Shown one piece after another: positions 3,907 through 5,851 of a DNA stretch of 41,893 nt. The notes under the pieces are model-generated. The model saw only the letters and a list, made by a program, of their open reading frames with translations. It searched no databases and was not told the origin of the DNA. Location of the stretch: contig SVMH01000015.1 in the NCBI GenBank assembly GCA_015067525.1, positions 1 through 41,893 of the forward strand. The letters run 5' to 3'. Position 1 is the stretch's first letter, and each line of letters starts with the position of its first letter. The translations under genes and the position numbers were made by a program. Source of the DNA: Oscillospiraceae bacterium (GTDB lineage: Bacteria > Bacillota > Clostridia > Oscillospirales > Oscillospiraceae).

Positions 3907-4464
3907 ATGGAAGATCACAAAATCATCAAGCTCCTCTGGCAGCGGGCGGACAGTGCCATCGACGCACTGGCCAAGACCTTCGGAAAGCGGCTTATGTCCA
4001 TCGCCATGAATATTCTTGGGGTGCGTCAGGACGCAGAAGAGTCTGTGAACGACACGTATTTGGCCGTGTGGAATACGGTCCCGCCCAAGAAGCCGGAGCC
4101 GCTGGCAGGCTATGTATACGCCACCGGCAGAAACATTTCGCTGGACCGTCTCAAATACAACACCGCCGAAAAACGGGACAGCAGATACGATGTTTCCATC
4201 GATGAGCTGGCATACTGCATTCCTGCGCCTGCGCTGGAGGAAACCGTAGACGCCCGCGAGCTGGGACTTGCCATCAACCGTTTTCTGGGCACGCTGAACG
4301 CCGACAACCGCGCGCTGTTTCTGCGCAGATACTGGTTCGGCGATCCCGTGCAGTCCATCGCCAGAGATCTCGGCCTGCGGGAAAACGCAGCCAGCGTCCG
4401 GCTCGGCAGGCTCCGGACACAGCTGCGGGAATACCTGATCAAGGAGGGGTATGTTGATGAATGA
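3907..4464 (+). CDS. ECF-like sigma-70 family RNA polymerase sigma factor
   Basis: A 185-residue alternative sigma factor with the two-domain layout of the ECF group. Region 2 runs through residues 10-75 (SIAMNILGVRQDAEESVNDTY is the core-binding and -10-reading part, followed by VWNTVPPKKPEPLAGYVYATGRNI, given here in two parts because it continues). Region 4, residues 115-180, has a helix-turn-helix (VQSIARDLGLRENAASVRLG) for the -35 element. There is no sigma 1.1 or 3 domain. A GAGGAGG box precedes the ATG. The stop codon overlaps the start of the serpin gene, which is the normal arrangement of an ECF sigma factor with its anti-sigma factor. Confidence 0.9.
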   Translation: MEDHKIIKLLWQRADSAIDALAKTFGKRLMSIAMNILGVRQDAEESVNDTYLAVWNTVPPKKPEPLAGYVYATGRNISLDRLKYNTAEKRDSRYDVSIDELAYCIPAPALEETVDARELGLAINRFLGTLNADNRALFLRRYWFGDPVQSIARDLGLRENAASVRLGRLRTQLREYLIKEGYVDE

Positions 4465-5851
4465 GAAAGTCGCCAAAGCGTTGGGCTATGTAGACGAAAA
4501 GTACATCACCGCTGCGGCCAGGCGCAAAAAACGGAAGCGCTTCTGGCTGGGCGCGGCAGCCGCCGTTCTGGCGCTGGTGTTTCTTTTCCAAACGCCGAAC
4601 ATCCCCCTTGTTATTACAGCAAAGGCGGTCAGCCTTTCTTCCCCGTCCCGGAAAATCGAGCGGCCCGATATACGCTCCGATGAGTACGACTTATGGTATG
4701 AGGAACACCAGAAGCGCACCGAGACAGTAAACGCCGCCATGGCTCCGGTGGTCGACTTTTCTGTTGACTGCTCTGCCAGAGTTCTGTCCGGCACTGACGC
4801 CAAAAACCGGGTATGGTCGCCCATCAACGCCTATCTCGCCTTGGCCATCACCGCCGAGCTCACCGACGGAGCAGACCGGCAAAAGCTGATGGAGCTTCTG
4901 GGCGTCACCGAGCTTGAGGAACTGCGGACGAAAGTCAGCGCCCTGTGGGAACAGGTATATGCGGACAACGGAAAGGAAATCAGTGTGCTTGCCAACTCCC
5001 TGTGGCTGGACAAAGGCATCACCTATCAGCAGGAAGCCCTTGACACGCTGGCCTATCACTACTATACATCGGTATATCAGGGTGATCTCGGATCCGGCAG
5101 GACGAACCGCGACATGGCCAACTGGCTGCGCAACCAAACCGGCGGTCTGCTGGACAAGCGGACCGGCAGTGTCAACATCTCCCCCGAGGCCGTGTTGGCA
5201 CTGGCATCCACAATTTACTTTCAGTCCCAGTGGTGTGACAAGTTCCGCGCCGGCAACAACACGGAAGGCACATTCCACGCCGCTGACGGCGATGTGCGCT
5301 GCACCTTTATGAACCGAAAGCTGGCAGAAATGAATTACTACTGGGCGGATGACTACGGCGCCGTTCGGCTGGGGCTGGAAAACAACTCCTCCATGTGGCT
5401 GATCCTGCCGGACGAAGACAAGACGGTGGACGATGTTCTCCGAAGCAGCGATTACATTGCCATGGCCACCTACAGCGACGCTTTTCCGGAGGAAAATCAC
5501 AAGCGGATGAAGGTGAATCTGTCCGTTCCCAAGTTCGACATCTCCTCCGGCATCGATCTGGAGCCCGCGCTGAAAGAGCTGGGTCTTGCAGCGCTCTTTA
5601 CGCCTGACGGCAACCACTTCTCCACGGTGCTCGAGAGCGAAATGCCCGTGTTTATCGACAGCATTCATCAGGACACCAGAGTCACCATCGATGAAGACGG
5701 CGTAAAAGCCGCCAGCTATCTTGTGCTGCAGGGTGCCGGCTCCGCCGAGCCGCCCACGGAGATCATTGATTTCATTCTGGACAGACCCTTTGTCTTTGTC
5801 ATCGCCACAAATTCGATCCCGCTGTTCGTTGGAACGGTGAATCATCCGTAA
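4457..5851 (+). CDS. Membrane-anchored serpin with anti-sigma-like N-terminus
   Basis: A 464-residue protein in two parts. Residues 1-28 are a short basic cytosolic segment, 29-45 one transmembrane helix (WLGAAAAVLALVFLF), and from about 95 to the end a complete serpin outside the membrane. Serpin hallmarks are SPINAYLALA near 114, ALASTIYFQSQW near 250, FDISSGIDL near 360, a hinge TIDEDGVKAAS at 410-420, and DRPFVFVIA near the end. By counting from the conserved E413 (P17), the bait bond falls near S429-A430. The ATG at 4457 is chosen because AAGGAGG lies 9 bases away; an ATG two codons earlier is too close to it. The gene overlaps the sigma factor gene by 8 bases. The N-terminus resembles those of clostridial anti-sigma proteins encoded next to such sigma factors, so a signalling role is inferred. 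Confidence 0.88.
   Translation: MNEKVAKALGYVDEKYITAAARRKKRKRFWLGAAAAVLALVFLFQTPNIPLVITAKAVSLSSPSRKIERPDIRSDEYDLWYEEHQKRTETVNAAMAPVVDFSVDCSARVLSGTDAKNRVWSPINAYLALAITAELTDGADRQKLMELLGVTELEELRTKVSALWEQVYADNGKEISVLANSLWLDKGITYQQEALDTLAYHYYTSVYQGDLGSGRTNRDMANWLRNQTGGLLDKRTGSVNISPEAVLALASTIYFQSQWCDKFRAGNNTEGTFHAADGDVRCTFMNRKLAEMNYYWADDYGAVRLGLENNSSMWLILPDEDKTVDDVLRSSDYIAMATYSDAFPEENHKRMKVNLSVPKFDISSGIDLEPALKELGLAALFTPDGNHFSTVLESEMPVFIDSIHQDTRVTIDEDGVKAASYLVLQGAGSAEPPTEIIDFILDRPFVFVIATNSIPLFVGTVNHP

Follow-up and report, generated by a model that had tools for sequence, protein, structure and literature searches.

A sigma factor gene overlapping the gene for a membrane-anchored serpin in an Oscillospiraceae bacterium: a putative anti-sigma factor with a serpin as its sensor

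Among the anti-sigma factors that hold extracytoplasmic function (ECF) sigma factors, one closely comparable with the protein treated here is RsiV of Bacillus subtilis, the partner of sigma V and a sensor of lysozyme, for which passages of PMC6066255 describe a signal-peptidase site. RsiP, the partner of sigma P in Bacillus thuringiensis, is cut by signal peptidase near its transmembrane helix without having a DUF4179 domain, and the proposed beta-lactam sensor of that system is a separate protein, PbpP, according to passages of PMC8844934. As to the cytosolic parts of such proteins, sections of PMC7406223 describe the class I anti-sigma domain (ASDI) as a four-helix domain of 50 residues or more, and report for CnrY, the class II partner of CnrH in Cupriavidus metallidurans, that its first helix binds region 4 of the sigma factor and its second helix region 2. 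On the side of the serpins, a passage of PMC8233489 states that the native state of tengpin is stabilised by its N-terminal tail, which binds near strand s1A. Here we describe a locus at which a sigma factor and a serpin come together: on contig SVMH01000015.1 of an Oscillospiraceae bacterium (assembly GCA_015067525.1), of which positions 1 to 41,893, the whole stretch analysed, are called the window below, an ECF sigma factor gene overlaps the gene for a serpin that is anchored by a short cytosolic head and a single transmembrane helix. We consider it rather probable that this pair is an ECF sigma/anti-sigma switch in which the serpin is the sensor.

The open reading frame of the sigma factor exceeds the Pfam cut-offs for Sigma70_r2 (4.9e-07) and Sigma70_r4_2 (2.7e-06), and matches the NCBIfam family sigma70-ECF at 6.1e-18 (65 bits against a cut-off of 42.9); with both region 2 and region 4 above cut-off and a length of about 185 residues, the product belongs among the ECF sigma factors. 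For the second gene a start at ATG 4457 is favoured over one at 4451, on account of an AGGAGGG at 4442-4448, which resembles a Shine-Dalgarno sequence, and of the MNEK with which close relatives start; from 4457 on, the two genes overlap by 8 nucleotides. Residues 100-464 of its product match Pfam Serpin (PF00079) over positions 5-370 of the 370 in the profile (9.1e-58, 196.7 bits against a cut-off of 27), and the closest PDB sequence is tengpin (3.5e-31). The arrangement noted in a preliminary description of the window, a sigma gene overlapping a gene for a cytosolic head, one transmembrane helix and a full serpin outside, is thus borne out by open reading frames, Pfam and the structural model; its short basic head is indeed short (about 27 residues), while the basic character is confined to the final part (RRKKRKR) and does not extend throughout. 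The head, in which no Pfam family exceeds its cut-off, is modelled as two short helices (residues 3-10 and 14-21).

How widely is this arrangement found? A serpin is present at E 0.001 or better in 215 of 400 genomes of the same family, and the window protein has matches in 213 of the 400. In the scan of named genomes, which covers the best 80 of 537 relatives, the closest relative among the matches listed is in Candidatus Faecousia excrementigallinarum (68% identity), and the titles of many of the 80 describe bins, from the rectum, cecum or colon, of Oscillospiraceae, Lachnospiraceae or Clostridia. A named isolate with the pair is Flavonifractor sp. AGMB03687 (L215). To the loci from these searches 100 regions around listed matches were added, and removal of rows with identical last 150 residues left 240 serpins, among which close relatives are still present. 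A comparison across genomes for conserved pairing, proposed in the preliminary description, was made on this set: an ECF sigma gene lies just upstream (from an overlap of 160 nucleotides to a gap of 300) in 129 of the 240, and in none of the 82 serpins with a lipoprotein anchor, counts that give no natural frequencies because similarity to the window serpin largely determined which serpins were included. The two genes overlap by 1 to 23 nucleotides in 110 of the 129 pairs, most often by 4 (61 pairs), 8 (20) or 11 (17). A head was assigned by script in 124 of the sigma-linked serpins; in the other five the script had misplaced the start, and these match the head profile as well, one of them weakly (L214, 24.3 bits, its sigma gene 278 nucleotides away). 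The remaining serpins comprise 7 at contig ends, 15 that are unclear and 7 typed as having a head without a sigma gene upstream; among the latter, L060 and L103 have the sigma gene directly downstream, L116 and L213 each represent the second copy within a run, and L243 has another kind of N-terminus. With 129 of 240 serpins showing the arrangement, the pairing is more than chance adjacency, which the recurrence and the tree test given below rule out.

The head can be recognised independently of serpins. When a profile limited to the cytosolic part is trained solely on 149 proteins that are not serpins and used at a threshold of 10 bits, it matches 111 of the 112 serpins beside group A sigma factors, the group of the window (the miss is L214), and 5 of the 7 heads without an upstream sigma gene, whereas it finds no match among the 82 lipoprotein serpins, the 15 unclear rows or the 17 serpins adjoining group B sigma factors. 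When the transmembrane helix is included the profile is less specific, matching 6 of 82 lipoprotein, 6 of 15 unclear and 15 of 17 group B rows. Group B heads bear a motif of their own, Y-K-x-A-N...H-x-P, found in 17 of 17 and in 0 of 112 group A serpins; since a first pattern matched 8 of 17 and was widened after inspection, this count is descriptive, and the independent evidence is the result with the head profile. A tree built from the cores of 202 serpins shows 22 switches between the lipoprotein and the sigma-linked form and 4 switches of the sigma group. Counted over independent pairs on supported branches, head by the non-serpin profile (with group B excluded) and sigma linkage are concordant in 8.9 of 9 pairs and opposite in 0 (median p 0.004), and the script's type call, made blind to the sigma gene, gives 8.8 of 10 concordant, 0 opposite and the same median p of 0.004. 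The preliminary description had counted against itself homologous serpins that stand alone and homologous sigma factors with unrelated anti-sigma proteins. In form the former exist, as the 82 lipoprotein serpins without an adjacent sigma gene; in substance the head profile matches none of these, and the other partners of the sigma factors bear the same head.

Indeed, the head is a module that is found under other proteins. Seventy-six matches of the sigma factor (E 3e-26 or better) are listed in 61 genomes, 60 of the family and the bacterium's own; 70 were examined, with 6 left out, and 11 of the 70 adjoin serpins. A profile of head and transmembrane helix built from serpins matches 57 of 59 downstream proteins of the non-serpin pairs in the family above 10 bits, and the cytosolic part alone 52 of 59, against 6 and 4 of 2365 decoy reading frames, respectively, the best four decoy matches being true head proteins of neighbouring operons. 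The sigma factor is present in 58 of 117 genomes of the order (E 1e-20) and in 34 of 196 of the class (E 1e-15), and the family of the window itself contributes a few genomes to either set. Of 94 new downstream proteins from order, class and 40 further stretches, mostly of other families, 90 match above 10 bits, and four are serpins. Pfam scans of 57 such proteins recognised DUF4179 in 4 and seven further families once each. At loci L250-L309, too, the sigma factor is followed by head-and-membrane proteins whose outside parts are mostly unrecognised by Pfam.

A different order of genes is seen at L009, L017, L027 and L028, where three genes stand in a row, for a group A sigma factor, for a head protein of its own and for a serpin that has a lipoprotein-like start and is distant from that of the window. 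For 78 lipoprotein serpins the sequence reaches far enough upstream to look for a sigma gene, and one of group A lies within 2.5 kb upstream in 4 of them, namely in L163 and in three of these rows. Through the three-gene rows the sigma group is linked with serpins once more, and the serpin there looks like a product.

In 102 group A serpin pairs, mutual information with the sigma factor is raised in the head columns (mean z 1.15), measured against serpin columns of similar entropy as the control (mean 0), and not in the transmembrane columns (z -0.09) or the linker (0.02); no window of equal length among 386 and no entropy-matched set among 5000 reaches the head score. The nine top residue pairs were chosen from 161 sigma-head pairs and then looked up in 94 held-out pairs, where, among 6256 ranks, sigma 128 with head 16 came 1st, 97 with 6 came 5th, 135 with 19 came 8th and 124 with 13 came 11th. 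At sigma 135 and head 19 the charges are opposite in 132 and alike in 13 of the 145 rows in which both residues are charged, counted over all 255 rows with the training rows included. It is to be noted that shared ancestry can inflate co-variation, and that only sigma factors with identical last 120 residues were dropped from the held-out set; that ancestry is the whole cause is argued against by the replication of the signal in separate sets and by the control within the same protein. In the model of the sigma factor (mean predicted local distance difference test score, pLDDT, 81.0) residues 124 and 128 lie at the end of helix 116-128, residue 135 in helix 132-143 and residue 97 in helix 93-102. 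The replicated couplings thus fall in region 4 and the preceding helix, and therefore the head likely packs there. Taking together the linkage to the sigma gene, the head type that tracks the sigma group, the sharing of the head with non-serpin proteins and the held-out co-variation, the anti-sigma-like membrane anchor of the preliminary description is supported, and the sequence comparisons make it a well-supported proposal that the head acts as the sigma-holding domain of an anti-sigma factor.

What, then, of the serpin outside? In the hinge of the window serpin P12 is Ala, P11 Ala and P10 Ser, the small residues expected of inhibitory serpins. The loop was located in 126 of the 129 sigma-linked serpins; P12 is Ala or Gly in all 126, P10 is Ala, Ser or Thr in 124, and P14 is Val or Cys in 114. 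In the 98 loops where P1 could be placed through a Pro-Pro anchor, it is Ala in 50, Ser in 29 and Gly in 15 (94 of 98 together), and small P1 residues suit elastase-like proteases. The model of the serpin protein has a pLDDT of 80.1, with low confidence at residues 425-437 of the loop; it places a strand at 56-59 and one long helix at 76-110, and predicts the linker to be structured (pLDDT 84-89 over residues 51-100). Its alignment to native tengpin (2pee_A) starts at residue 53 and that to latent tengpin at 86, judged by the first and last aligned residues only. The model is compatible with the native as well as the relaxed form, since the word cleaved stands in the titles of 8 of the 10 top PDB matches and the model makes residues 415-425 a strand. 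Within 30 residues past the transmembrane helix an A-x-A motif occurs in 76 of 102 group A serpins (41.8 in shuffled sequences, standard deviation 4.2) and 15 of 17 group B serpins (7.5, standard deviation 1.9), and without enrichment in close lipoprotein serpins (25 of 55, shuffled 25.3). Signal peptidase could cut at this motif, as it cuts RsiV, or the motif could belong to the fold of the linker.

Upstream of the paired group A sigma genes a motif of two blocks was learnt, TGTAACAT and TTGCGaCTATATAG separated by 11-12 nucleotides, which resembles ECF promoters. In 102 held-out regions 75% exceed the 95th percentile of the control and 69% the 99th, in a test that is not blind, because the seeds were picked by eye from these regions and each held-out model had as its starting point the motif refined on all of them; by the same limits, 15% and 11% of 82 lipoprotein serpin genes and 55% and 41% of 153 non-serpin group A sigma genes are counted. 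The site before the sigma gene of the window scores highest in the window (20.6, next 14.9), the window sequence having been part of the training. Self-regulation of the operon is therefore likely, as judged from this motif. Strong motifs also stand upstream of the lipoprotein serpin genes L092, L151, L113, L015, L067, L069, L070 and L238, which are possible targets of such sigma factors.

With these elements a working order of events can be proposed. At rest, the two-helix head of the membrane serpin would hold the sigma factor at region 4 and the preceding helix, while outside the serpin would present its bait loop with a small P1 residue. A change of fold on protease attack is established for inhibitory serpins; here, attack on the bait loop would consume the serpin, change its fold and lead to release of the sigma factor. 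The membrane-near linker may thereby be loosened and become open to site-1 cleavage, for which signal peptidase acting at A-x-A is the candidate, and a site-2 protease, a family present in the bacterium's own genome, may cut next, or the protein may simply be lost. The freed sigma factor would transcribe its own operon from the conserved ECF promoter and provide more sigma factor and more serpin, so that the consumed inhibitor would be signal and product at once.

Several observations weigh against this proposal. The hinge of inhibitory type and the small P1 fit a protease signal, and the same loop is found in lipoprotein serpins; because the loops of close lipoprotein serpins are alike, the loop is not peculiar to sigma-linked forms. 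P9 is Tyr or Phe in 115 of 126 sigma-linked loops and bulky in the window too, which is unusual for an inhibitory hinge. In the heads of non-serpin proteins A-x-A is not enriched (38 of 153, shuffled 36.2). The head itself, residues 1-27, is modelled at low confidence (pLDDT about 50-56), and two serpins with a head, L139 and L150, the latter with a clear one (25.8 bits), have no sigma gene in the stretch examined. The tree test is weaker with the profile that includes the transmembrane helix (4.9 of 9 concordant, 0 opposite, p 0.06), since plain membrane anchors, too, score with that profile. Five of the nine residue pairs are not near the top in the held-out set (136 with 19 at rank 43, 98 with 8 at 244, 161 with 6 at 1353, 80 with 10 at 4410 and 165 with 10 at 5108), and at 124 with 13 there is no complementarity of charge (16 opposite, 25 the same). 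In the bacterium's own draft genome (85% completeness) a scan with up to 3 mismatches finds, at a spacing of 12, the operon's own site only, and at a spacing of 11 no site; a wider regulon is thus not seen within 3 mismatches, and looser sites would escape the scan because its pattern is the window's own site.

Other explanations have to be compared with the switch. It is possible, though we think it rather unlikely, that the protein is an anti-sigma factor whose serpin is cargo: the head would answer membrane stress or the level of the protein, and the serpin would be a protective product held at the surface. The three-gene rows with their product-like serpin speak for such a division and keep open the option that the fused serpin, too, is mainly a product; the 22 switches of form make the serpin domain a mobile module, and the likeness of bait loops in both forms points the same way. 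On the other hand, so frequent a fusion of product and regulator would be odd without coupling between them, and the linker is modelled as structured, with the native tengpin alignment starting inside it. It is quite improbable that the serpin senses a cue other than a protease, for example a small ligand as in hormone-binding serpins, when its hinge has small residues at P12 and P10 and nearly all placed loops a small P1. Least probable of all is the view that the serpin acts simply as an inhibitor, secreted or at the surface, behind a long signal peptide, that the sigma factor only drives its expression and that the head has no anti-sigma role: head, transmembrane helix and A-x-A do resemble a long signal peptide, but the head co-varies with the sigma factor in held-out data, its type follows the switching of sigma group, and the same head is borne by other ectodomains beside related sigma factors.

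The features of the locus are collected in Table 1. The two genes probably form an operon closed by the inverted repeat. Beyond it lies an intact tRNA-Gln(ctg) gene (6129-6202, minus strand), and positions 5891-6202 hold partial copies of tRNA 3' ends and terminator-like stems that resemble tRNA debris, with a 62-nucleotide repeat (5923-5984 and 6091-6152, 84%) and an 18-nucleotide repeat (5891-5908 and 6061-6078). The third serpin of the bacterium's own genome, L153 (G000:C70, minus strand), starts possibly with METKLLDYTIEQAEYP and has no clear signal or transmembrane segment.

Table 1. Positions in the window of the sigma/serpin locus and its parts
Feature	Position	Strand	Basis
ECF sigma factor gene (group A), 185 aa	3907..4464	+	profile matches, model
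Putative serpin anti-sigma gene, 464 aa, or 466 aa from ATG 4451	4457..5851	+	open reading frame, Pfam
Cytosolic head, residues 1-27, proposed sigma-binding domain	4457..4537	+	head/sigma association, co-variation
Transmembrane helix, residues 28-45	4538..4591	+	hydropathy, helix in model
Outside linker, residues 46-98	4592..4750	+	strand 56-59 and helix from 76 in model; native tengpin alignment
A-K-A, residues 55-57, candidate signal-peptidase site	4619..4627	+	A-x-A enrichment after transmembrane helix against shuffles
Serpin domain, residues 99-464	4751..5848	+	Pfam Serpin, tengpin match
Hinge and reactive centre loop, P15 Gly415 to P4' Pro433	5699..5755	+	alignment of 126 sigma-linked serpins
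P1-P1' Ser429-Ala430 (inferred; P numbering via Pro-Pro anchor)	5741-5746	+	loop alignment
Perfect 16-bp inverted repeat and T run, likely terminator	5851..5885	.	repeat search; absent from consensus scan list
ECF-type promoter: TGTAACAT (3857-3864), 12 nt, ATTCTATTACATAA (3877-3890)	3857..3890	+	learnt two-block motif
Sigma-70-like promoter TTCACA-18-TATGAT, possible basal promoter	3824..3853	+	consensus match only, 10/12

What would it mean if the switch with the serpin as sensor is true? Each spent inhibitor would order its own replacement, and in bacteria serpins would act directly as receptors of a signal. The bacteria concerned, many of which come from animal guts, would have a direct route to sense proteases and to respond with an inhibitor, which bears on the protease balance of the gut. 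To us the chances seem evenly balanced that the locus belongs to a large, apparently undescribed ECF family of Clostridia, in which a head of about 27 residues clamps the sigma factor under many ectodomains and the signal in the serpin branch is consumption of the trap. The head module would also offer a handle for learning what many unknown outside domains sense. A description of a sigma/serpin pair was not found among the titles and abstract beginnings that were searched, and the sigma/head group may figure in the large ECF reclassification; text searches in a paper on siropins (PMC5127057), in a serpin phylogeny (PMC8233489) and in a serpin review (PMC6718151) gave no link to a sigma factor.

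How does the locus finally stand among the known systems? With tengpin and the siropins, group T serpins, the protein shares the serpin fold. Its head is not of class I (ASDI), having about 27 residues and, in a model of low confidence, two short helices; by this predicted length and helix count it may fit the short two-helix domain of class II, as in CnrY, and CnrH (4cxf) is among the PDB sequence matches of the sigma factor (2.8e-04). Unlike CnrY, the head has its replicated couplings in region 4 and the preceding helix. RsiP, cut near its transmembrane helix and lacking DUF4179, is similar in that the window protein, too, has a candidate signal-peptidase site near that helix and no DUF4179 above the cut-off, and it is different in that it has no serpin. 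Like RsiV, the protein of the window would be a single-pass anti-sigma factor with a hydrolase-binding domain outside, and it has a short head, a transmembrane helix and a candidate A-x-A; unlike RsiV, whose cleavage site lies in DUF4179, its ectodomain is a serpin, and it is not a member of that family (12.6 bits against a cut-off of 30.1, E 0.19). A serpin trap works in one shot, unlike the sensing by RsiV. Even though the protein is no RsiV, the best reading by analogy is that its mode of action resembles that of RsiV with lysozyme, and it would be the second case, after that pair, of an anti-sigma factor with a hydrolase-binding sensor.
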